A stretch of 64,000 bases of DNA. It comes from Deltaproteobacteria bacterium. Its GTDB lineage: Bacteria; Desulfobacterota; Syntrophobacteria; Syntrophobacterales; Syntrophobacteraceae. Made by a program: the position numbers and the translations under genes. The stretch spans positions 1-64,000 of the forward strand of contig JAAYVE010000018.1 in NCBI GenBank assembly GCA_012517315.1, given 5' to 3'. Shown here one piece after another: positions 23,134 through 43,751 of the stretch; positions within the stretch are counted from its first letter, which is position 1, and each line of letters starts with the position of its first letter. The notes under the pieces were generated by a model. That model did no database searches, was not told where the DNA came from, and was given only the letters and a program-made list of their open reading frames with translations.

Positions 23134-23856
23134 TCATGCCCTGGAGAGGTTCTCCGCTGCAAACTGCCAGTTGATCAAGTGGTCCAAAAGAGCGTTCACG
23201 TAGTCACCCCGGCGATTCTGATAGTCAAGGTAATAGGCGTGCTCCCAGACATCGATGGTGAGGAGCGGTGTCTGCCCTTTGGTGAGGGGATTGTCCGCGT
23301 TTGCTGTCTGAACTACCTTCAGGCGGTCGCCGTCCAGGACCAACCAGGCCCAACCGCTGCCAAACTGGGTCAGGGCGGTGTTGAAGAACTCTTTTCTGAA
23401 ATTGGCAAAGCTGCCGAAGGACTTATCCACGAGGGTTTGGAGATCCCCCTCAGGTTTTCCTCCCCCGCCTTTGCGCAAACTCTTCCAAAAAAAGTCGTGG
23501 TTCCAAGACTGCGCCGCATTGTTGAAAACGGCTGTCTTTTCGGGAAGATTGGCCGTCTGCTTCAGGATCTCTTGAAAAGACAGGCCGGCAAGCGGAGTCC
23601 CTTTGATGAGTTCAATGGTCTTGTCCACGTATCCCTTGTGGTGCTTTCCATAATGAAATGACATTGTCCGGCTGGAAATGTAGGGTTCCAGGGCGTCATC
23701 CTTGTATGGAAGAGGGGAGAATGCCACCGCCGGGGGGGGTGGAGACTGGGCGCAACCCAACGGAAGAGTTCCCATGCCAAGAGCCACGCACAAACCCCCT
23801 GCCCGGACCAGGAATTCTCTCCGGTTCACGTCACCACGAGGTATCTCCTCCTTCAT
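23134..23856 (-). CDS. sod: Exported lipoprotein Fe/Mn superoxide dismutase
   Basis: 240 residues. The N-terminus carries a twin-arginine motif ([11 protein letters not shown], about residues 11-21), a hydrophobic stretch and a lipobox-like LPLGC, so the enzyme is predicted to be Tat-exported and lipid-anchored. The Fe/Mn SOD domain follows, with metal ligands in [17 protein letters not shown], and [15 protein letters not shown]. It dismutates superoxide outside the cytoplasm. ATG 23856 follows GGAGGAAAAC. Export of an Fe/Mn SOD as a lipoprotein is uncommon but fits a need to protect periplasmic metalloenzymes such as the hydrogenase and formate dehydrogenase encoded here. Fe versus Mn cannot be decided safely. 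Confidence 0.93.
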
Positions 23857-24293: not shown

Positions 24294-24354
24294 AATCGTC
24301 CGTTGATCCGCCGGGGAGCATAAAAAACAATTGGACACAAAGGGAGTGGGCATT

Positions 24355-25587
24355 ATGGGTTCCTGTCATGGTGGTCAGTGTGACCACGGAGCGAAGGAAA
24401 GCGAGAGTGATCGCAAGTTTGAACAACAGCTGGGAAAGATCCGACGCAAGATTCTGGTCATGAGCGGGAAAGGGGGAGTGGGTAAAAGCAGCGTTGCGAG
24501 CTATCTCGCCCTCGGTCTTTCCAACCTGGGGCTGCGAGTCGGCCTTCTCGATGTGGATTTCCACGGCCCCAGCATCCCCCGCATGCTGGGAGTGAGCGGC
24601 ATGCTGCGCGTGGACGATGAACGCAAGTGCATGATTCCTCATCAGTACAATGACAAACTCCAGGTGGCTTCCATCGAGTGTTTCCTGGAGGATCGCGATA
24701 CAGCAGTGGTCTGGCGGGGGCCGGTCAAACACGGGGTCATCAAGCAGTTCATGACGGATATCAACTGGGGGGAGCTGGACTACCTGGTCATCGACTGCCC
24801 TCCGGGCACGGGGGATGAACCCCTCAGTGTGGCGCAGTCCATCCCGGGGACCTATGCCGTCATCGTGACGACGCCCCAGGAGATCGCCCTGGCCGACGTG
24901 AGGAAGTCCATCAATTTCTGCAAACTGGTCCATATGCCCATTCTTGGTCTGGTGGAGAACATGAGCGGTTATGTCTGTCCCCACTGTAACCAGGAGGTTC
25001 CCCTTTTCGGAAAAGATGGGGGGGTCCGAACAGCGAGGAAGATGGGCATTGAGTGGTTGGGAAGTCTTCCGTTCGACCCTCGGGTCGTGGAGAGTGCCGA
25101 CGTGGGTGTTTCCCTCCTCGGAAGGCAGGATGGGAGTCCTTTTGTCAGGGAATTGGGGCAGTTGGTGGCGAATGTCGTCCGCAAAATGGATCACCTTGGA
25201 AGCAGTGTCGCACCGACGACAGTTCCCAAGACGGTGTCGGCAGGTGAAAAGACCTTCAAGGTGGCCATTCCCCTGGCTGAGGGACGGCTCACCAATCATT
25301 TCGGCCATTGCGAGCAGTTCGCAATCATCCAGGTGGACGATGGACAGATCAAGGGAAAGGAATTGGTGACGCCTCCCCCCCACGAACCCGGTCTTTTGCC
25401 GAGATGGCTTGGAGAGAAGGATGTCCACTGCATCATCGCCGGAGGCATGGGGCAACGGGCGATTCAACTTTTCGCCGAGCGCGCCATCAAGGTGATCACA
25501 GGCGCTCCAAATCTCACGCCGGAGGAATTGGTGAAGAGCTATCTCGATGGAACCCTCGTTACGGGGGCCAACGTCTGCGATCATTGA
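24355..25587 (+). CDS. Mrp/NBP35-type P-loop ATPase fused to a NifX/NifB-C-like domain
   Basis: 410 residues in two modules. Residues 30 to about 290 are an Mrp/Nbp35 (ApbC) ATPase: deviant Walker A SGKGGVGKS (37-45), DVDFHGPSIPRMLG, DYLVIDCPPGTGDE, and the CxxC in YVCPHC that binds a bridging iron-sulfur cluster between two subunits. From about residue 302 there is a dinitrogenase iron-molybdenum cofactor biosynthesis (NifX/NifB-C) domain starting KVAIPLAEGRLTNHFGHCEQF. The N-terminus (MGSCHGGQCDHG) is Cys/His-rich and could bind metal. ATG 24355 follows AGGGAG; a TTG at 24331 is less likely. A second NifX-like gene is 35 bases downstream. Likely role: iron-sulfur or metal cofactor carriage. 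Confidence 0.92.
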   Translation: MGSCHGGQCDHGAKESESDRKFEQQLGKIRRKILVMSGKGGVGKSSVASYLALGLSNLGLRVGLLDVDFHGPSIPRMLGVSGMLRVDDERKCMIPHQYNDKLQVASIECFLEDRDTAVVWRGPVKHGVIKQFMTDINWGELDYLVIDCPPGTGDEPLSVAQSIPGTYAVIVTTPQEIALADVRKSINFCKLVHMPILGLVENMSGYVCPHCNQEVPLFGKDGGVRTARKMGIEWLGSLPFDPRVVESADVGVSLLGRQDGSPFVRELGQLVANVVRKMDHLGSSVAPTTVPKTVSAGEKTFKVAIPLAEGRLTNHFGHCEQFAIIQVDDGQIKGKELVTPPPHEPGLLPRWLGEKDVHCIIAGGMGQRAIQLFAERAIKVITGAPNLTPEELVKSYLDGTLVTGANVCDH

Positions 25588-26052: not shown

Positions 26053-28020
26053 TTAGAGAACTTGCACCATGTGGGAGCAATGCTTCTCCATATCGATCAC
26101 ATGGACTCCGCAGGCGATACAGGGATCGAAGGAATGGAGAATGCGAAGAAGTTCCAGCGGCTTGGAGGTATCTGCCACGGGGGTTCCCATGAGAGCCTTC
26201 TCCACCGGTCCTGGTTCGTTGTTCCCGCAGCGGGGGCTGAAGTTCCATGTGGAGGGCACCACGAGCTGATAATTTCCAATTTTTCCGCTCTTAACCGATA
26301 GCCAATGACCCAGGGCTCCTCGAGGGGCCTCGTTGAAACCCTCTCCCCTTGCCTCCAGCGCAGGTGAGTAGATCTCAAAAACCTGCCTGACTCCTTGGCT
26401 GATGTTTGTTTCCAATTTCTCCACCCATTCAAGCATGGCATCGGCGATGACAACGGTTTCAATGGCGCGGGCTGCAGTGCGTCCCAGGGTGGAGAACATC
26501 CCGGTGACATCGAGGCCGGTTGCACCCAAAAAATCGTTTACCTCCTGCGTCACGTGAAGATGGCCGGAGGCGTAGGCTGTGAGAACCCGGGCGAGAGGGC
26601 CCACCTCCATGGGCAGTCCGTCGTAGCGGGGAGCCTTCAGCCAGCTGTAACGATCCTCCGCGTCCATGGGGGTGAACAACGGTGTGGTCCTGCCGTCGTA
26701 AGGATGGAGAGCGCTGGAACCTTCGTACCAGGAATGGGCCACGTGCTCCAGGATCTTCCCCATATCGACGGGATAGACGTCTCCCAGATTCCTATCCAGA
26801 ATGATCCCTCGCGGCAGGAAGAGGTCCTCAGGTTCATCAGGCCCCTGGGGAAATTCTCCAAAGCTCATCAGGTGGTCGTGACCACCGATTGCATCCCAAC
26901 CACTATTCTTGTATACGCTTGCCAGCAGACGCACGTCAGGAAGATAGACCCCATTGACGAACTTCGTGGCCCCATTCAGAATTTCCCTGAAAAGATCCAA
27001 GGTCGAAGGTTTCCCCAATTCGCCGCTGCAGGTGACCCCTCCCACCACGACCGATTGAGGATGAGGGTTCTTGCCACCCAGGATGGCGTGAAGGCGGGCA
27101 ACCTCAGCCTGCTTTTTGAGTGCCTCAAGGTAGTGGGCCGTCATGAGGAGATTCTCCTCGGGTGAAAAGCGGTATGCGGTATGTCCCCAGTATGCATTGG
27201 CGAAGGGTCCGAGCCTGCCGGTCTCAACGAAAGCGGCCAGGCGGGACTGAACGGCGACGAAATCGATGGGATCGGCATCAGGGGTCAGACTCTCGGCCAG
27301 CCGTTCCGTCTGAATGGGGTCTGCGCCTAAGGCGCTCACCAGATCCACCCAGTCCATGGCATGGAGATGGTAGAAGTGGACGATATGGTCATGGATGAAT
27401 TGGGCCCCCAGGAGAAGATTTCTCACGATGCGCGCGTTTTCGGGAATCGACACACCGTATGTGGTCTCGATGCAGCGGCTCGCGGTGAGCATGTGGATGT
27501 AGGTACATACCCCGCAGAGGCGCTGAGTGATGTGGGGTGCATCCGTTGGATTGCGTCCGTTGAGAATGAGTTCGATTCCCCGGAAAAGAGTGGCCGTGGA
27601 CCAAGCTCCCGTGACCCTGCCGTTGTCCACCTGCGTCTCGATCTTGAGGTGCCCCTCGATGCGGGTCACGGGGTCGATGACGACTCTGGTGCCGCTGCTG
27701 GCGGGCTGAGAGCTGTCCTCCTGGACCGCCGTAACGGTCGTCCCCAGAAGATTGGAGCCGAAAAGGGAGAAGGTTGCCGTGTCGTTGACGCTGTCGGCAT
27801 CGGTGAGGGACTTGACCAAGACCCTGACGGGGACGGACCAATTGTTGGAATCGAAACGGATAGCCGTGGGTTGAGGCACCAAGTATTCACTCCCTTCAGT
27901 GCGCACGATACGCACGGCGACGCGGCGCGCAGGCCGCTCAGAAAGCCATACCGTAAAGACATTCTCCCCTCCTTCGGGAACCTTCAGGGAAGAGACGCTC
28001 GTCATGATTTGAATTGCCAT
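26053..28020 (-). CDS. hynB: Periplasmic [NiFe] hydrogenase large subunit with N-terminal Calx-beta-like domain
   Basis: 655 residues. Residues 1 to about 105 form a beta-rich module resembling Calx-beta domains: VPEGGENVFTVWLSERP, then NWSVPVRVLV, DADSVNDTATF and GTTVTAVQED. The catalytic subunit starts at VVIDPVTRIEGHLKIE. The nickel-site motifs are intact: RLCGVCTYIH (C169, C172) and DPCIACGVH near the C-terminus, followed by a 15-residue tail that a maturation protease would remove after the His. The call is group 1 uptake-type hydrogenase. It has no signal peptide; export must rely on the Tat signal of the small subunit 185 bases upstream. No maturation protease or cytochrome partner is nearby. 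Usual large subunits lack the front domain. Confidence 0.93.
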   Translation of the reverse strand: MAIQIMTSVSSLKVPEGGENVFTVWLSERPARRVAVRIVRTEGSEYLVPQPTAIRFDSNNWSVPVRVLVKSLTDADSVNDTATFSLFGSNLLGTTVTAVQEDSSQPASSGTRVVIDPVTRIEGHLKIETQVDNGRVTGAWSTATLFRGIELILNGRNPTDAPHITQRLCGVCTYIHMLTASRCIETTYGVSIPENARIVRNLLLGAQFIHDHIVHFYHLHAMDWVDLVSALGADPIQTERLAESLTPDADPIDFVAVQSRLAAFVETGRLGPFANAYWGHTAYRFSPEENLLMTAHYLEALKKQAEVARLHAILGGKNPHPQSVVVGGVTCSGELGKPSTLDLFREILNGATKFVNGVYLPDVRLLASVYKNSGWDAIGGHDHLMSFGEFPQGPDEPEDLFLPRGIILDRNLGDVYPVDMGKILEHVAHSWYEGSSALHPYDGRTTPLFTPMDAEDRYSWLKAPRYDGLPMEVGPLARVLTAYASGHLHVTQEVNDFLGATGLDVTGMFSTLGRTAARAIETVVIADAMLEWVEKLETNISQGVRQVFEIYSPALEARGEGFNEAPRGALGHWLSVKSGKIGNYQLVVPSTWNFSPRCGNNEPGPVEKALMGTPVADTSKPLELLRILHSFDPCIACGVHVIDMEKHCSHMVQVL

Positions 28021-28205
28021 CTGGATTTCCTCTCTAGTCTTTTTCCCAGCCTGCCTGGTGACGTATTCCCCTTCCAGGATGAAATGGAAGAAGGCGGAGG
28101 CCGCGTGAAAGAGATTCAGACAGGCAAGAGCTCATTTTCGTCGGGGATACCCTGAATCATCGGATGAAAAAAGTTCTTACAGGGACCGCAAAGCGCCAGG
28201 GCCCT

Positions 28206-29150
28206 TCAATCATCGCCTGCCGCTTTCCCTTCACCGATGAAGGCGTAATCGGCGTAGAATTTCCGCACGAACTCGGAGGAATAGAAGGGAGCAAACCTGT
28301 CCCAAAAACCGGGTTCAGTGCATCCGATGCAGTGATGACCGGCCTGAACGTCCCAACTGGTCCCATCGTTGAACCTGAGGGTTGGACAATTGCCGTAGGT
28401 CCTCTTGCCTTCGCACCCCAGATCTTCGAGGCAGCCGTAAGGCTTGTTGCATCGGTCGTGGACCTTGCTGCCATAGGCGAATTTTGGTCTTCCTAATGGA
28501 TCAAGCTCCGGCAGTGTGTTAAAGAGAAGGTAATTGGCGATGGTGGAAACCAGGTTGATGGGATTGGGGGGGCAGCCGCTGATGTTGATGGTCTTCACTC
28601 CCACAGCGTCCTGTACGCCCTTGGCACCAGTGGGATTGGGTGCGGCGGCGGTGACTCCCCCGAAAGAAGAGCAAGTGCCATAGGCAATGACAGCCTTGGC
28701 TTTCGGGAGGATCGTCTGGGCAATGTCAAGCATGGTACGACCCCCGATGGTGCCAAATACACCGTTTTGCCCAGTGGGAATAGCTCCCTCAACGACACAG
28801 ATGAATTCACCAGGGAAATCGGCCACAGCCTGGTCTCGATTGGTTTCCGCCTGTGCCCCTGCAGCGACCATCAACGTCTCATGATAGTCGAGGGAAATCG
28901 TATCCAGAAGAATCTGCTCCACAGAAGGCCGGGTGCTCCTCAGAAATGCCTCGCTGCACCCCGTGCATTCGGCGAAATGCAGCCAGACCACGGGAGGGCG
29001 CTCCGGACTGGTCAAGGCTTCCGCGATGCGACCGGCATAGGAAGGGCCGAGACCCAATGCTGCGGCGATGGTGCCGCAGTACTTCAGAAAGCTTCTCCGT
29101 GAGATCCCCTTGTTCAAAAGATTGGTTTGTTTCTCGCTGAATTCCATCAT
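28206..29150 (-). CDS. hynA: Periplasmic [NiFe] hydrogenase small subunit
   Basis: 314 residues. It has a Tat signal with SRRSFLKYC (17-25) and a hydrophobic stretch, so the folded heterodimer is predicted to be exported. Ligands for the proximal cluster (AECTGCSE, YGTCSSFGG, SGCPPNP) and for the medial and distal clusters (VHDRCNKPYGCLEDLGC, YGNCPT, HHCIGC) are present. There is no C-terminal membrane helix, so the enzyme should be soluble in the periplasm and pass electrons to a c-type cytochrome. The start is ATG 29150 (or 29147) after AGGAG. It is first in the operon, under the promoter at 29198-29225. Confidence 0.95.
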   Translation of the reverse strand: MMEFSEKQTNLLNKGISRRSFLKYCGTIAAALGLGPSYAGRIAEALTSPERPPVVWLHFAECTGCSEAFLRSTRPSVEQILLDTISLDYHETLMVAAGAQAETNRDQAVADFPGEFICVVEGAIPTGQNGVFGTIGGRTMLDIAQTILPKAKAVIAYGTCSSFGGVTAAAPNPTGAKGVQDAVGVKTINISGCPPNPINLVSTIANYLLFNTLPELDPLGRPKFAYGSKVHDRCNKPYGCLEDLGCEGKRTYGNCPTLRFNDGTSWDVQAGHHCIGCTEPGFWDRFAPFYSSEFVRKFYADYAFIGEGKAAGDD

Positions 29151-29569
29151 CCGTACTCCTTTTGTGAATTAACGTGCCTCACCCTGAAGCGCACCCAATT
29201 GTAGAGCAATATGCATACCTGACAACTAGGATTCTATCAAAGTGGGGCCAATGGGCTGGAATTCTGTATTTTTTTCCCACTCGAAGCATCCTATTTTGAT
29301 GAAATGGCATGGTCGTCAGGCGTTTGTTTCCGGAAAAACAGACAAGAATCATCCGGTTTTGCCGACGCGAATGAAGGAGAAAGACCTCGGCAGCGGGGAA
29401 TGCACAAGCAGTTCGGATGTCACAGGGGCTTTCCATGCGTGAGGAGATGCGTTAGGTTGCGCAATGGTGTTGTACACGAGATGCGCTGCATCGAGAGCGA
29501 AGTCACTCGAACCTATCTGTCTTCTGTCAGGGATTGCTGTGTTCCTTGACGCGAGCGAGGAGGGAAATG
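29151..29569. other. Divergent intergenic region between hydrogenase and EF-hand genes
   Basis: Holds the hydrogenase promoter and the ribosome site of the EF-hand gene (GGAGGG at 29559-29564). The promoter for the EF-hand gene is not obvious. No other gene is supported. Confidence 0.5.
29198..29225 (-). promoter_or_regulatory. Sigma-70-type promoter for the hydrogenase operon
   Basis: On the minus strand there is TTGTCA (29220-29225), a 16-base spacer and TACAAT (29198-29203), both 5/6 to consensus, 48 bases upstream of the small-subunit start. Confidence 0.6.
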
Positions 29570-29977
29570 ATGAAAACGAAATGGATGTTTGGATCGTTTG
29601 CCCTGCTGCTGTGCCTTTTTTATTCAGGTTCAGCCAATGCCGCAGAGCCGGGTGCGGGAGTCGAGGTGGAGGTGGCGGGACCACAGAGTGCGTCTGCGTG
29701 CACCGCACGGTTCGACCTATTGGATAAGGACAAGGACGGCAAGCTGATTCCCGAGGAGTTCAGCCCCGGCCAAAGAAGGCGGGGAAGGGGAGACAGGTTC
29801 ATGAACCGGTTGGACCTGGATGGTGATGGTGTGGTGACGAAGGAGGAGTTTTGCGAGCGACGGGGCCGGGGGCGAGGGAAGGGGACGGTGGTGCCTCTTT
29901 CACAGTCGGGTACCTCTTCCACCTCCCAGATAGAGCAACAGTCGGGGCCCGAAATCCCAAAGCCCGAAAAACCTTGA
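29570..29977 (+). CDS. Exported EF-hand calcium-binding protein
   Basis: 135 residues. It has a Sec signal peptide (KTKW, hydrophobic core, cleavage near SANA-AEP at 24). Two canonical EF-hand loops follow: DKDKDGKLIPEE at 52-63 and DLDGDGVVTKEE at 82-93, both with Asp at positions 1, 3 and 5 and Glu at 12, so calcium binding is likely. The linker and tail are Arg/Gly and Ser/Pro rich. ATG 29567 or 29570 follows GGAGG. It is divergent from the hydrogenase operon, whose large subunit carries a Calx-beta-like (often calcium-binding) domain; a functional link is only a hypothesis. Confidence 0.85.
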   Translation: MKTKWMFGSFALLLCLFYSGSANAAEPGAGVEVEVAGPQSASACTARFDLLDKDKDGKLIPEEFSPGQRRRGRGDRFMNRLDLDGDGVVTKEEFCERRGRGRGKGTVVPLSQSGTSSTSQIEQQSGPEIPKPEKP

Positions 29978-34620: not shown

Positions 34621-36243
34621 TTACAGGATGTCGAGGGGGATCCAGTAGCCCTCCGAGGACAGGCTTTTCTTTTGGAAATCCAGCCCAAGGACGTGGGACC
34701 CATAGGCCCCGATGCGGCGATTGATGTTGTAGGTGATGGGCGGCGTGAGCCCCGTTTCGAATTGCATCATGCCGTCCATGGCCTTGATGAATTTTTCCCG
34801 GCTCAGCTGTCGACCGGTTCGCTTGAGCCCCTCCACGAAGATTTTCGCGGCGCAGTATGATGAAATTTGGGCGGCCAGGTGTCTTTCCGGGAGTTTGCGG
34901 GAGGCGCGAAAGCGGCTGAAATCCTTTGCACCGGGCCCGGTGTAGTCTAGAGGGGCCGTGGCGTAGGCCAGGTAGACGCGGTTTCCCCAGTTTTCGAGGA
35001 TCTGAAAGAGGTCTTCACCTGCGGAGGAACCGGGCAGGTACAATTGGGGCGACCACTCGATTCTGTCCGCTTCCTGGACCATTGCCTTGATCTCTTCCCA
35101 TGTGCCGAGATGGATCACCACTCCTGTATCGCGCTGTTTCAAGGTCCCGACAAAAAGGTGCGGGGAGAGGGTTCCGCCGGCGGTTTCAATTTTTTCCAGT
35201 CTTTTCCAGCCCAGTTTCCGCGCCTGCCTCTCAGCGGCATCGAGGACGGCCTCGGGAGTCTCTTTGGATGAGTAGACAACGGCGGCGGAGCCTGTCGGTC
35301 CTCGGAGCTTCTCCCTTGCGAAGATGAGCATGGCGCGAACCTGTTCCGTGATCCCCGAGTAGATGTAGAAAGTGAATCGGTTGAGGAGGTTCACGTCGGC
35401 GGGTCGGATCGTGAACGGGCCCACCACCGGGACTTCCAGTTCCTCGGCGAGGCTTGCGATTGCATCTTCCGCCCCCGCCACGAAGGGACCCACGAGGGCG
35501 AAAATGTCCTCGCTCTCCATGAGTCGCCTGGCGGCCTCCAGCGGAGAGGCGGCGGTTTCCTCCAATTCCACCGGATGGAGCTCCAGGCGACGGCCGTAAA
35601 CACCTCCCCCGCGGTTGATGTCCTCGAAGAATCCCTTCAGGACCGACTCCATGGACTTTCCCATGGGGGACAGTCTCCCTCCCAGGGGGAGAAAGGTGCC
35701 CACCCGGATGGAGGTTTCCTCCAGGCCGGGATCGAGGACGGTGCCGATGCGCCGGATATAGGCAATGAGGTCGGCCATGTCCGCTTCCGACATTGTGTAG
35801 CGGGGCATGGACACGTCCAGTTCGCGGCCCGCAGGGTCCAGTCCCTGGGAAATGGCCCGGGCCAGCGTCTCCTCGGTGTATGGGGGGTGTTCCCGCCCTG
35901 TGATGTGCCGAACGCCGTAGGGTTTGGTCAGTTCCTCCCAAGTGATGGTGGTCGCCGTCACCCCGCTTTCCACCAATCCGATGCCGTCATGGCCGTGGCA
36001 GTTGATGCAGGGAAGGGACACTCCAGGGGCCACCATTTGGGACTTCCCCACCCTGGCCGTGATCTCTCTTCCGGAAGGGCTTACTGTCTTGACATAGATC
36101 TGCTTACCGCGCCTTTCCTCTTTGGAGAGCTTGGCGCCCCACGCATGGGCGAAAAGAGCAAGAAGGATGACGGAGGAGAGTACCGCGCTAACGAATCCCT
36201 GAGGAAAGGGCTTTTCGCCCCGGCTTTGCATGGGGTTGCTCAC
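34621..36243 (-). CDS. c-type cytochrome fused to a branched-chain-amino-acid-binding-like periplasmic domain
   Basis: 540 residues. A signal anchor or signal peptide (hydrophobic about 20-35) is followed by a cytochrome c domain with one heme site (CINCHGHDGIG, about 79-83) and an axial Met in MPRYTMSEADMADLIAYIRR. From about residue 178 there is a Leu/Ile/Val-binding-protein-like (type I periplasmic binding) domain: VGTFLPLGGRLSPMG, ALVGPFVAGAEDA, VPVVGPFT, and VYLAYATAPLDY. GTG 36243 has AGAGGAG upstream; a GTG at 36288 and an ATG at 36231 are alternatives. It is third in line behind the beta-propeller and multicopper oxidase genes. It may couple ligand sensing or delivery with electron transfer; the substrate is unknown. 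No ABC permease or ATPase genes are near. Confidence 0.88.
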   Translation of the reverse strand: MSNPMQSRGEKPFPQGFVSAVLSSVILLALFAHAWGAKLSKEERRGKQIYVKTVSPSGREITARVGKSQMVAPGVSLPCINCHGHDGIGLVESGVTATTITWEELTKPYGVRHITGREHPPYTEETLARAISQGLDPAGRELDVSMPRYTMSEADMADLIAYIRRIGTVLDPGLEETSIRVGTFLPLGGRLSPMGKSMESVLKGFFEDINRGGGVYGRRLELHPVELEETAASPLEAARRLMESEDIFALVGPFVAGAEDAIASLAEELEVPVVGPFTIRPADVNLLNRFTFYIYSGITEQVRAMLIFAREKLRGPTGSAAVVYSSKETPEAVLDAAERQARKLGWKRLEKIETAGGTLSPHLFVGTLKQRDTGVVIHLGTWEEIKAMVQEADRIEWSPQLYLPGSSAGEDLFQILENWGNRVYLAYATAPLDYTGPGAKDFSRFRASRKLPERHLAAQISSYCAAKIFVEGLKRTGRQLSREKFIKAMDGMMQFETGLTPPITYNINRRIGAYGSHVLGLDFQKKSLSSEGYWIPLDIL

Positions 36244-38621: not shown

Positions 38622-41600
38622 TCAGTTGACTCTCAGGATTCCCCAGACCCCGCCCACGAAATGGGGCGAAGAGAAATCCCTGTAGAGGTAATCCCCCCGG
38701 ATGCCGAACCTGCCTCCGGCACTCCTCAGGATCAGGTTCCAGTGGGCATACGGGCCGTGCCCTTCCTGGGATCCCTGCACCTGAGACTTGGAGTTGAACC
38801 CAAGCCTGGTGGAATCGAACTGGTACGGAAGGCGCTCCCAACCATGCCCCTGGATGACCGGAACGTGATTGCGGGCGTGTCCGCCGGCCTTGAGGACGCG
38901 GAATCGGACCTGATGCCTCGCCCTGGCCAGGAAAACCGGAGTTTGAGGATCGGCACCACCTGTGATGGAATTGGAGAGAGCCGCCGAGAAATCCACGGCG
39001 TCCGTCTGTGCCCCCGTGGCATTGGGAGCGTACCCCAGTCGGAACCAGAGAGGTTCGGCCCTGTAGTTCAGACCCTCGTTTCCTGAATCCTCCGCGCCTT
39101 CCTCCACCACGGCCGGCGGAATGGGGATCCGGTTGGCGTCCATGAGGTTCACGTCGTCCTGGAACATGAGGACAAATTCCCTGAACGTTCCCGAATCCGG
39201 CGAAAACACGGTGGCTTGGGCCCTGGAGTTCGTGTCTTCAAGCCACTGGGCGTTGCGCGGTTCGATGATAAGGGCTCCGACAGCCCCCTTGTTGCTGTGC
39301 TTCATGGGATCTGCGGGAATCAGATTGGTGGCCCCGAATTCCACAGGAGTTGCGACCAGTTCCTCGCGTTCGCCGAATCTGAGGGTCCCGGCATACCACC
39401 GGTAGGTGATCACGCCGCCCGGGCCCACCGTCTGGTTGGCCGCCGGGGCCGCCGGGTTGATGCGGTTCGGGTTCAGCCCCACGTTGGTCCCGTCATGGAG
39501 GGACACATCGTAGGCCACCAGTTGGGCATGGAGTCCCACCTGGGTGGACGGCCTAACCTGGTTGGCGTTGAAGTTGTCGATGAGAAAGGGCCAGTGATTC
39601 CACCCGGCCGGGTCTTCCAAGACATTGGGCAGGCGGTTTCGCAGCGTCACGTCGATGCATTCACCGGCAGCCGCACGAAGAATGAGCGGTTCCACGGGCA
39701 CCCCGGGCAGGAGCCTGCCGGAATCATCCAGGTCGGAGGAGCGCACATACAGGATAGCCGATGGATCGTGGAGCGGTCCGGGATTCCCCGCAAAAGCCCC
39801 CGTTCGACTGTTGTAAACCAAGGTTCCACGAGATCCACGGGGTGCGCCGGGCAAAGGAGGCAATGCCTCGGACGCGGCCACCGCCGTCACGTCAAAACGC
39901 CGCACCGGCGCCGTCCTGGGGCATACCCCGTTAAACTCCCGTGCGTTGTTGATGCGGATGGTCTCGGGCGGATTATTGGGCAAAGGCTTCAGTTCCACGC
40001 CGGAATGTTGCCGGTCATATGCCCTGAGGATTCCCCAAGTGCCGTTCCATTGGTCGTCCACCGATGCCCCGAACTTGTAGAGGAAGTCCGTGAAAGGAAA
40101 GCGAGGTGTCGTCTCGTTCAGAGTGGGAACGAGCGGGATGTTGAGTTCGAAGTGTTCCGCGATCCCCAGGTGCTGATGGTTGATGTACCCGGAATTGGGG
40201 GAATTGGTCTCCTGGAGCCAGGCAGCCCCGTGGATGGCCGCGTTGTGGGATTCTTCCGTTGCCCCGGTCCCCAACCTCATGACCACCCTGTCCCCGTAAA
40301 AGATTTTGAGGAGCGGCGTGAAGGGGTCCCCCCGCTGGGCCCCGGTGGTGAGGAAGTCACCGCCGAAGAAGTCGGGCTGAACATTGAGTTCAGGATTGGC
40401 CCGGTTGATGTCCGAGCGGTACACGAAGGCCAGGTCCCCGGCCAGGCCTGGGGACTGGCTCCCGGTCGCCGGGTTGTAGATACGATGGGCGATGGGTTCG
40501 TTTCGGTAGTTCACTAGCATGGTTCCAGGATCAGCGGCCGAAATGGCTTCCGGACAAGGGGGTGGATTGATGCCGTCAGGGCACACGTTGCTCCGGTTTA
40601 CCACGATGGGCAAGGGAGCCTGTTCCCTTGCCGGGCCGTTGATGACGAGCTGCGGATTGGCTTCACCCACCACCACGGTGCCCGAACCGGGTTCGGACAC
40701 ACCGAGAACGCTTCGGCTCGGAGCCGTGTCCGTCACCGCGAAGAGGGGCCCCGGTGCGTATGCCTGCTGAAAATCCGCCGTGAACATGAAGAATTCTCGA
40801 AAGCTCCTGCTGCTGTCCGGCGGAATGATATTTGCCTGGAAACTCGTGGGCCCGCCGTCTTCCCTCACACCCAGAGGTTCGCCCGTTTCCGCGTGGAGCC
40901 ACTGGGACCCCTCCGGTTCCACGCCCAAGAAGGCATAAAGGCCCGCCTGCTGATGGGTGGACGGTCCGAAGTGGTCGTGGGTGAACACGGTCCCGAGAGT
41001 CCTGTCCTCCCCCCTGTTGTTCATGGTCCGGTCGGCGTACCACCGCTGAAGAGTGGTCTGCGCCCCGTTTCTCAGTTCAAGGGGCAGGCCGGCGAAAGCC
41101 GGGTCGGGATGGGGCACGGGCTGAAGGTTGGTGTCCACCTGGCCGCTGATTCGAGTGAGGCCGCCACCGTGGTTGAGAGCCTCGATGCGCTCCCTCACCT
41201 CATGAGGGCTGAACGTGCCGTCTTCGTAGTTCCAGCCGTTGCCGGAACCGTCGGAGGAGGTCACGTCGAATTTCACCAAGTGAATGTGCTGGCCGATGAT
41301 GTCCGTGGGCGTCCGCACCTGGTAGTCGTCCATCTGGTAGACATTGGGAACCAGGTTGGTGTGATGGAAGGTGATGCAGTCATTGGAGTTGGCACGGAAG
41401 AAGAAGGGTTCCGGTGCCTTCTGCTTGTTCATGATGGCTTCCACGTCCTGCCAGTGCGCCAGGATGCGAGCCTGGTTGAAGTGCCATCCCACCTTGTTCA
41501 TGATCATGTCGAACTGGAAGGCGGCCCCCTTGATGATGCGTTCTACGCCGGTGGGTTCTCCCGAATCGTCGACGCACGGGTCAGCAAAAGGTGCTCCCGC

Positions 41601-43751
41601 GATGGGCGGCAGGCCGTTGGTCTTGAACCCGCCGGGGTCGTTGGCGGCAGCTCCTGCGGGTGTCCCATCGGGATAGAACGTGGGGTGAAAACGCAGGGCG
41701 TGAAAGGACATGGCTGCCTGTTCCAGGGGCGTGCCCGATTCGGGCAGTTCCCTCGCGGCCATCTCGATGAGCACCTTATCAAAGCTCAGCCGTGTCTCCG
41801 CGTGGTCATAGACGGACTGCTCGATTCCCGATGTCACCACGTGACGGGGCAACCCCCCGTCGTGGAGCGTGTCCAGAGGAGACCTGGGGGGCCTGTGGCC
41901 TGCAATGCCCGGGATGAAGAAGGGATATCCGGGGTTCCCCAGGGGCTGACCGGCGAGGGGAGTCACTTGCACCTGCCCCCCGGGTTCCCCCGCTCTCTGG
42001 ACGATGGTCACGTTGGCTCCCGGTCTGGGGGGCATGGGGCGGCCCGGTAGAGGCACCACGGCGGGAATGGGGGTGCCGGTGGCGATTTCCGCGTCAGGGA
42101 GTGCCCGGCTTCCTGGGGCCGGCCGGCCCTCGGCGTCCAGCTGCGTCCCCGTCTCCAGCACATCGTGCACCCGCCAGAGGGCCCACATGCCCATGGCGAA
42201 GTGCGGATAGAAATGGCAGTGAAAAATGGAGTCCCCTGCCGTGAGGTTGCGATTGCCGCTGCCGTTGTAGGCAATTTCGTATGTGTAGCTGGCCCCGGGA
42301 CCCAGTCCCTGGACGTCCACGTAATTGGAGTTGTCGTCATCGGGGGTGAACAGCCACTGATGGGCGTGGAGGTGAAACATGTGGTGTTCCTTGCCCGCGT
42401 GGACGTTGCGCATTTTCACATGATCGTTGAGGTAGCTGTGAAAGACGTTGGAAGGATCGTCGGCGTAAAATGCCTTGGTGGCTTTCGGCCCCGGCTGCAG
42501 AAAAGCTTCGGCGCCAATGAAGTCCCCGGGGCCTGCCGGAATGTCCACCACCATGGCGGGATCCCCCACCGCCCAGGAAGTGAGGAAAAACTCCTCGAAT
42601 TTGCATTCGGTGCAGTCCCACATGGGTCCCACTTTGAGCCGGTTTCCGATGATCTCAGACCCGATGCCCCCGGTTCCGTAGTTCACGGCGAACGCATCCC
42701 GCACCGGATGCAAGGTGTGGCTGAGGGGATTCTGGTTCACCCCTCCAACCTCACCTTCCTCCTCACCCCCTCCCGTGAAGTTGGGCGTGAATTGGGGGAA
42801 TGCCTGTGTGGCGTTGATCTCATCGTGAAACACAATCGTGAATTCCCTGTACGGCTCAAGGCGTGTGCGGGCGGGTAGATCGTCGGATCCCGGCGGAACG
42901 GCCACATCCACCCTGGGGTAGGTCCCCGGGATGAAGTTGCCTCTCCCCGGCCCCGTGATGATGGCGTTGATGTCGCTGTGCACCAGTTCATTGTTTGCGG
43001 TGAGCATCTTCAGGATGGGGCGCCCCGCCAGGGGGTGGCCTGCGGGGTAAACGGCGTCGTAATCGATGATGGGGTGACCCGAAGCGGTCTGATCGATGGT
43101 GGCCAGGGAAAGGTCGTCCTCGGTCACTTGGCTACGGTAATATTCCGCGCCAACCGGCTGAACGTTGACCGTACCGAAAAGCCCAACGGAAAAGGCGCCG
43201 GTTCCCTCCTCTCCGCCGCCGAGGGTGCTTCCGCTGTAGAGCAGGTAGGCACCCTCACGTTCCGCTGTGTAGGAATACGTGGCCCTGCCCCCCGGAGGCA
43301 CCAGGCTGCTTCGGTTTCGCCCCACATGGGAACCCATGCTGCCCACGCCACCCACTAGGCTCAAGCCCATGACCTGAACCGAAGCGGTCCGGGTGGCCGG
43401 TTGGCCGGGGGCTGCAAGGGGTGTCAGAAGATTTTCGAAATGGATGGTGAGGGTGTCTCCCACGTTCATGCGGAGCACGATGGGGCGGGGTCTCTTGCCC
43501 GATCGCAGCTGTACGTTGCCCGGTACCAGCCCGAGCGCTGGGTTCCGGGGAACCACGTCCCCTTTGAGGGCGTAGATCATCCCATTGGGAATCATGGCGC
43601 CGAGTCGGTTCAACATGATGGAATGATCCAGTGCTACCACATTGGCTGTGACGTTCTTGGCGGAAGCTGTGGAAACCACAAGGGGGACCGCCAATAAACC
43701 AAACGCCGTTGCCAGTGGCCATCTCGTCAGTTTGCGTCCGAACCTGTTCAT
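38622..43751 (-). CDS. Giant exported multidomain multicopper oxidase
   Basis: 1709 residues, several times the usual 450-650 of three-domain laccases. It has a Sec signal peptide (MNRFGRK, hydrophobic about 10-26, cleavage after SASA). Many cupredoxin-like segments follow. Copper motifs: HHMFHLHAHQW (456-466), the type 1/type 3 motif HCHFYPHFAMGM (511-522), FHHTN (796-799), HIH (822-824) and THDHFGPSTHQQAG (924-937). A later domain has HNAAIHGAAW and HQHLGIAEHF, and the last domain has a degenerate copper loop (YRDFSSPHF). CTECKFEEFF is a CxxC without heme His. The layout recalls MnxG-like manganese oxidases and ceruloplasmin, but the substrate is unknown. ATG 43751 follows GGGAGGG; the longer frame to 43829 is unlikely. 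It heads a three-gene exported set. Confidence 0.92.
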   Translation of the reverse strand: MNRFGRKLTRWPLATAFGLLAVPLVVSTASAKNVTANVVALDHSIMLNRLGAMIPNGMIYALKGDVVPRNPALGLVPGNVQLRSGKRPRPIVLRMNVGDTLTIHFENLLTPLAAPGQPATRTASVQVMGLSLVGGVGSMGSHVGRNRSSLVPPGGRATYSYTAEREGAYLLYSGSTLGGGEEGTGAFSVGLFGTVNVQPVGAEYYRSQVTEDDLSLATIDQTASGHPIIDYDAVYPAGHPLAGRPILKMLTANNELVHSDINAIITGPGRGNFIPGTYPRVDVAVPPGSDDLPARTRLEPYREFTIVFHDEINATQAFPQFTPNFTGGGEEEGEVGGVNQNPLSHTLHPVRDAFAVNYGTGGIGSEIIGNRLKVGPMWDCTECKFEEFFLTSWAVGDPAMVVDIPAGPGDFIGAEAFLQPGPKATKAFYADDPSNVFHSYLNDHVKMRNVHAGKEHHMFHLHAHQWLFTPDDDNSNYVDVQGLGPGASYTYEIAYNGSGNRNLTAGDSIFHCHFYPHFAMGMWALWRVHDVLETGTQLDAEGRPAPGSRALPDAEIATGTPIPAVVPLPGRPMPPRPGANVTIVQRAGEPGGQVQVTPLAGQPLGNPGYPFFIPGIAGHRPPRSPLDTLHDGGLPRHVVTSGIEQSVYDHAETRLSFDKVLIEMAARELPESGTPLEQAAMSFHALRFHPTFYPDGTPAGAAANDPGGFKTNGLPPIAGAPFADPCVDDSGEPTGVERIIKGAAFQFDMIMNKVGWHFNQARILAHWQDVEAIMNKQKAPEPFFFRANSNDCITFHHTNLVPNVYQMDDYQVRTPTDIIGQHIHLVKFDVTSSDGSGNGWNYEDGTFSPHEVRERIEALNHGGGLTRISGQVDTNLQPVPHPDPAFAGLPLELRNGAQTTLQRWYADRTMNNRGEDRTLGTVFTHDHFGPSTHQQAGLYAFLGVEPEGSQWLHAETGEPLGVREDGGPTSFQANIIPPDSSRSFREFFMFTADFQQAYAPGPLFAVTDTAPSRSVLGVSEPGSGTVVVGEANPQLVINGPAREQAPLPIVVNRSNVCPDGINPPPCPEAISAADPGTMLVNYRNEPIAHRIYNPATGSQSPGLAGDLAFVYRSDINRANPELNVQPDFFGGDFLTTGAQRGDPFTPLLKIFYGDRVVMRLGTGATEESHNAAIHGAAWLQETNSPNSGYINHQHLGIAEHFELNIPLVPTLNETTPRFPFTDFLYKFGASVDDQWNGTWGILRAYDRQHSGVELKPLPNNPPETIRINNAREFNGVCPRTAPVRRFDVTAVAASEALPPLPGAPRGSRGTLVYNSRTGAFAGNPGPLHDPSAILYVRSSDLDDSGRLLPGVPVEPLILRAAAGECIDVTLRNRLPNVLEDPAGWNHWPFLIDNFNANQVRPSTQVGLHAQLVAYDVSLHDGTNVGLNPNRINPAAPAANQTVGPGGVITYRWYAGTLRFGEREELVATPVEFGATNLIPADPMKHSNKGAVGALIIEPRNAQWLEDTNSRAQATVFSPDSGTFREFVLMFQDDVNLMDANRIPIPPAVVEEGAEDSGNEGLNYRAEPLWFRLGYAPNATGAQTDAVDFSAALSNSITGGADPQTPVFLARARHQVRFRVLKAGGHARNHVPVIQGHGWERLPYQFDSTRLGFNSKSQVQGSQEGHGPYAHWNLILRSAGGRFGIRGDYLYRDFSSPHFVGGVWGILRVN

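Follow-up and report, generated by a model that had tools for sequence, protein, structure and literature searches.

The window, meaning the whole 64,000-nucleotide stretch of DNA that was analyzed, carries on its reverse strand the adjoining genes for the two subunits of a [NiFe] hydrogenase whose large subunit has an additional N-terminal domain (NTD). The features of this pair are, in the direction of reading:

28206–29150, minus strand: hydrogenase small subunit of 314 residues with a predicted twin-arginine signal (TIGR00391, TIGR01409), adjoining the large subunit upstream
28021–28034, minus strand: purine-rich, ribosome-binding-like stretch (GAGAGGAA; GAGAGGAAATCCAG) directly before the large-subunit ATG
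26053–28020, minus strand: [NiFe] hydrogenase large subunit with NTD, an uninterrupted reading frame of 655 amino acids with an ATG start
27709–28020, minus strand: residues 1–104, predicted Calx-beta-like beta-sandwich (AlphaFold2, Foldseek and VIA-align; homologues in six other genomes)
27685–27708, minus strand: residues 105–112, linker of low confidence in the full-length model, probably flexible
26101–27684, minus strand: residues 113–640, catalytic core (PF00374) with RxCGxC (167–172), DPCxAC (632–637) and His640
26056–26100, minus strand: the 15 C-terminal residues after His640, read from the sequence; for many of the listed solved chains the alignment ends at query residue 640

The catalytic part is that of an ordinary large subunit. 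Residues 147–640 match the Pfam family NiFeSe_Hases (PF00374) at 657 bits against a cut-off of 25.8 (E = 2.7e-197), both Ni-Fe ligand motifs (RLCGVC, DPCIAC) are intact, as is the final His, and Cys169, Cys172, Cys634 and Cys637, together with the other motif residues and His640, are invariant in 12/12 aligned members of its clade. The 15 residues following His640 are expected to be cleaved off by a maturation protease. Residues 110–653 align end to end (E = 2.2e-190) with 1h2a, a Desulfovibrio-type group 1 periplasmic hydrogenase (HynAB; 1h2a, 1frf), and the likeness extends to a small subunit with a Tat signal, the 15-residue C-terminal extension after the last His and the layout of a soluble heterodimer; unlike HynAB, the window protein adds a beta-sandwich of ~104 residues and a linker at its N-terminus, and its core belongs to a divergent clade that scores 547.6 with NF033181, for which the cut-off is 600. 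The small subunit scores 351.9 with TIGR00391 (cut-off 179.5) and 28 bits with the twin-arginine model TIGR01409 (cut-off 16.7), in agreement with the preliminary description, which took the hydrogenase to be exported; inspection of its sequence revealed neither a C-terminal membrane anchor nor a heme tail. Exported large subunits pass the Tat system folded, and to our knowledge they are normally bare. In sulfate reducers the expected role of such an enzyme is the oxidation of H2 in the periplasm, and because the genome to which the window belongs contains matches to dsrA and to the cytochrome c3 family, this role is expected here as well.

Additional residues ahead of the usual catalytic start had already been suspected from the sequence, and alignment with solved structures bears this out. 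Among the PDB chains listed (60 of the 70 matched), no alignment starts before query residue 98, and the best matches listed, to solved periplasmic hydrogenases, run from about residue 101–113 to residue 640 or beyond; roughly 100–110 N-terminal residues are therefore extra. Codons 69–117 contain no ATG, GTG or TTG, and the first possible start after codon 117 is GTG118, which lies within the conserved IDPVTR motif. An orthologue of the same length (655 residues) with the same fusion is present in genome G035, from another genus of the same family (loci L088 and L171, hereafter L171). Identity between the two proteins is 57% in the NTD (residues 1–100) and 75% in the core; codon differences in the NTD fall 37/24/61 on the three positions, and NG86 estimates of dN/dS are 0.38/2.60 (a ratio of about 0.15, with dS near saturation), a comparison of sequences that points to purifying selection on the NTD between the two genomes, dS being near saturation. 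Given the 655-residue orthologue, the excess of dS over dN, the multi-copy relatives described below and the lack of start codons in positions 69–117, the extension is not a start-site artefact. That explanation was rejected on the grounds that there is no usable start near residue 110, that the orthologue begins at the same start and that the codon pattern is that of a coding region, and an assembly chimera was likewise rejected, since the fusion is found in seven genomes that include one complete isolate chromosome. By this evidence, all of it from sequence, the extension is translated, and the reading frame is as first described.

The fold of the extension was approached by structure prediction. 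An AlphaFold2 model built from a six-row alignment shows a nine-strand sandwich with a pLDDT of 93.1 on residues 1–108; in the full-length model, which is only modest in the core (mean pLDDT 69, pTM 0.61), residues 105–110 and 114–125 fall below pLDDT 50. The predicted sandwich thus appears to be a separate domain, and it matches Calx-beta structures, as the preliminary description had anticipated. In a Foldseek search of the PDB the Calx domain CBD1 (3e9t) is one of 31 matches under 0.001 (E = 5.2e-4, TM 0.74/0.71), and PapD-like chaperones and ciliary ASH/MSP domains rank as high or higher. VIA-align gives Z 11.1 for NCX1 CBD1 (3gin; rmsd 2.6, 103 residues aligned) and Z 10.9 for 3e9t; the Calx-beta domains of NCX1, CALX and integrin beta4 span Z 9.8–11.1 at rmsd 2.4–3.2, tied with PapD-like folds, and the highest Z, 12.6, belongs to a ciliary protein.

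Direct sequence searches do not make the assignment. Pfam returned no Calx-beta match to the whole protein or to its 112 N-terminal residues even at E 10; a PF03160 search of the own genome returned no match, which says nothing, since none of its 14 controls matched either; and the NTD profile run against PDB sequences retrieved no Calx-beta chain, the best match, at E = 0.00097, being a fragment of an IgA Fc receptor. Intermediates nevertheless exist. A surface-protein repeat at locus L141 is matched by the NTD profile (E = 5e-11) and also reaches 27.3 bits with Pfam Calx-beta, just above the cut-off of 27; five of ten scanned repeats show some Pfam Calx-beta match, four of these five below cut-off; and hhalign places the NTD set against the five matching repeats at 97.3% probability (E = 2e-11). 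Because these sequence intermediates link the NTD to Pfam Calx-beta, it is put on the Calx-beta rather than the PapD/MSP side. The Calx-beta identity first suggested from strand motifs therefore fails as a direct profile match and holds by predicted fold and by transitive homology through the L141 and L145 repeats, and it is in this sense that the domain is Calx-beta-like. An absence of profile similarity, which the preliminary description named as grounds for refutation, does occur in the direct Pfam search, but the intermediates and the fold overturn that outcome. It shares with PF03160 domains (CBD1 of CALX and NCX1, integrin beta4) the beta-sandwich, with the L141 and L145 repeats as the link in sequence, and differs from them in lacking a direct Pfam match and in a C-terminal acidic site that is reduced in the window copy.

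Large proteins of Desulfobacterota that are putatively at the cell surface (L166, L170 and L165) contain the same domain family as tandem repeats, the best score with the NTD profile being 115 bits. These repeats occur with Big_2 domains in L166, and with Fn3 domains and a sub-threshold dockerin match in L170. In those proteins, which are apparently non-enzymatic, the family is tandem, whereas in the window it is a single domain fused to an oxidoreductase. At L165 the repeats are split across frames (frames 3587 and 3367 of L165, minus strand), either because the gene has decayed or through an error of assembly.

Large subunits that carry the NTD are rare. In the class of the window the protein is matched in 45 of 55 genomes and the NTD is covered in two (G000 and G035); in its order a strong large subunit is present in 32 of 39 genomes and extended in two. 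Across the phylum sample the NTD profile matches 7/395 genomes, and lies in a hydrogenase only in the window's own genome. For the order of Desulfosarcina alkanivorans the count is 31 of 389 genomes, with five matches in hydrogenases (locus DNA was examined for most, not all, matching frames), against 139/389 with a large subunit that matches at E ≤ 1e-150. Eighty loci from named genomes yielded 62 complete large-subunit frames, three of which have an extension of at least 60 residues. Among 66 frames with an NTD match, 47 are not large subunits and 19 are, representing seven distinct proteins, and to these seven hydrogenases the NTD is limited within the searches made. They contain one N-domain (window and G035), two (L001, L002, G726 (L162) and G560 (L163)) or three (G650 (L164)); the five Desulfosarcina-type genomes are thus those with two or three copies, and L002 is D. 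alkanivorans itself, the complete genome of a cultured isolate. The earlier belief that known large subunits lack the domain holds for the listed solved structures but not for the six further genomes with one to three copies.

A tree of 96 cores places the seven extended proteins in one 12-row clade (SH-aLRT 100, quick method), within which they group with L045, a long branch, at 95. At the same N-terminal site other members of the clade have Pro-rich tails (L004, L011), a Thr-rich tail (L045) or nothing (L053). One further member, the large subunit at L003:5746-7695, has there a different Ig-like N-terminal extension of ~100 residues and a Pro-rich linker; this extension matches no Pfam family. 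The own genome has a second group-1-like large subunit (C45), which is placed in another part of the tree and is free of the NTD. In the domain tree one surface repeat joins the first domains of the hydrogenases and the copy in the window (support 92/96, not starred), a grouping that fits a single origin of the NTD and also several. Beyond the small–large pair, nothing in the gene neighborhood is conserved between genomes, as judged by simple ORF calling in which some called ORFs are on the wrong strand.

D. alkanivorans and its four relatives share with the window the clade, the fusion point and the domain family, and differ from it in the number of N-domains (two or three) and in the C-terminus of the small subunit, which ends in a tail with two CxxCH heme-c motifs; the window lacks such a tail. 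The tailed small subunits are:

L001, 4833–5921: two CxxCH
L002, 4824–5921: two CxxCH
L162, 6409–7491: two CxxCH
L163, 7435–8571: two CxxCH
L164, 6496–7587: two CxxCH

Over all loci, 5 of the 63 small subunits obtained have this tail, and all five relatives with two or three N-domains have it, while the window and L171 do not.

The observed fusion and its conservation, the separately predicted fold, the low-confidence linker, the intact ligands, the Tat signal and the kinship with surface repeats are compatible with several roles. The reading that we prefer, at about even confidence, is that the Calx-beta-like NTD serves as a docking or spacer arm that positions a soluble, Tat-exported uptake hydrogenase. 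A domain of surface-protein type, fused onto the N-terminus of the large subunit, would face outward and place the enzyme at the envelope, the matrix or a redox partner, and the core would oxidize H2 and pass the electrons to periplasmic cytochromes. This is the first choice because the domain belongs to a surface-protein family, the linker is of low confidence, copy number varies and modules are exchanged at one site; the range of one to three copies, the NTD-free paralogue C45 and a Tat signal without an anchor are also counted in its favor. Docking, its target and the uptake direction are what we infer, and a spacer or stabilizer role would fit the same data. The earlier suggestion of docking to the envelope, a partner cell or a mineral thus gains circumstantial support from the surface-protein family, the other extensions at the same site and the NTD-free paralogue, but no anchor motif, ligand or partner gene came to light, and the unconserved neighborhood also speaks against an arm.

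It is rather unlikely that the NTD instead is a platform for a periplasmic cytochrome of the c3 type, or for the relatives' own di-heme tail, and so concerns the exit of electrons and not attachment. The co-occurrence of several N-domains with the two-CxxCH tail (5/5 relatives, against 5/63 small subunits overall) and the cytochrome c3-family genes of the own genome agree with such a platform, but the window and L171 have the NTD without a heme tail, and no cytochrome gene was seen directly beside the hydrogenase pair in the window. Still less probable is the calcium-responsive regulatory or stabilizing domain proposed in the preliminary description. Candidate acidic sites are kept in the hydrogenase copies (Asp74 and Asp76 in 13/13, Glu16 in 12/13, Asp102 in 11/13 with Glu in two), the predicted fold matches Calx CBD1, and a gene for an EF-hand protein is nearby on the opposite strand; we take Glu16, Asp74, Asp76, Asp102 and the C-terminal cluster to correspond to Calx ligands. 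Yet the likely C-terminal acidic cluster is weak (QEDSS in the window and QKEST in L171, as against, for example, EVDND in relatives), and PapD-like and MSP folds score equal to Calx-beta. Under passive accretion, added sequence would be tolerated at the N-terminus in this clade, and the NTD would serve no selected purpose other than leaving export unhindered; this comports with the unrelated extensions, low-complexity tails or bare termini at the same site but is improbable in the face of purifying selection on the NTD (NG86 dN/dS about 0.15, dS near saturation) and its retention in seven genomes.

Returning to the docking or spacer arm, a conserved, fused domain of surface type that varies in number, in a clade that exchanges modules at one site, suggests that the location of the hydrogenase is under selection. 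Such selection bears on the questions posed, in syntrophy and in metal corrosion, by hydrogenases that are outside the cell or associated with a partner; the fusion also amounts to a natural design for hydrogenase immobilization. A broader picture is entertained only tentatively, and we regard it as doubtful: this clade of sulfate-reducer hydrogenases would be a modular, surface- or partner-docked redox machine in which domains of adhesin type, one to three in number, orient the catalytic subunit and the small subunit of the Desulfosarcina branch is connected directly, through its fused di-heme tail, with a cytochrome or partner outside.

Both the enzyme and the domain are already known, and their combination in a large subunit was found in no paper. 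Searches of the open-access literature returned no paper with both 'hydrogenase' and 'Calx-beta', passages of PMC10052568 and PMC4794192 being on other subjects, and no description of this large-subunit fusion, of clade-wide module exchange or of a di-heme small-subunit link. A search against a defense-system library gave no match.

Several other genes of the window deserve mention. Divergent from the hydrogenase pair is a gene for a small, putatively exported EF-hand protein (29567–29977, plus strand). At 34621–36231 (minus strand) a cytochrome c region with CxxCH and a periplasmic binding protein domain (Peripla_BP_6) share a single ORF, and 38622–43751 (minus strand) encodes a putatively exported protein of 1709 residues with weak multicopper-oxidase matches. 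On the other side of the pair, an Mrp/NUBPL-type iron-transfer ATPase is fused with a dinitrogenase FeMo-cofactor-type domain (24331–25587, plus strand), and an iron/manganese superoxide dismutase (23134–23856, minus strand) is probably exported, since it has a twin-arginine-like leader.
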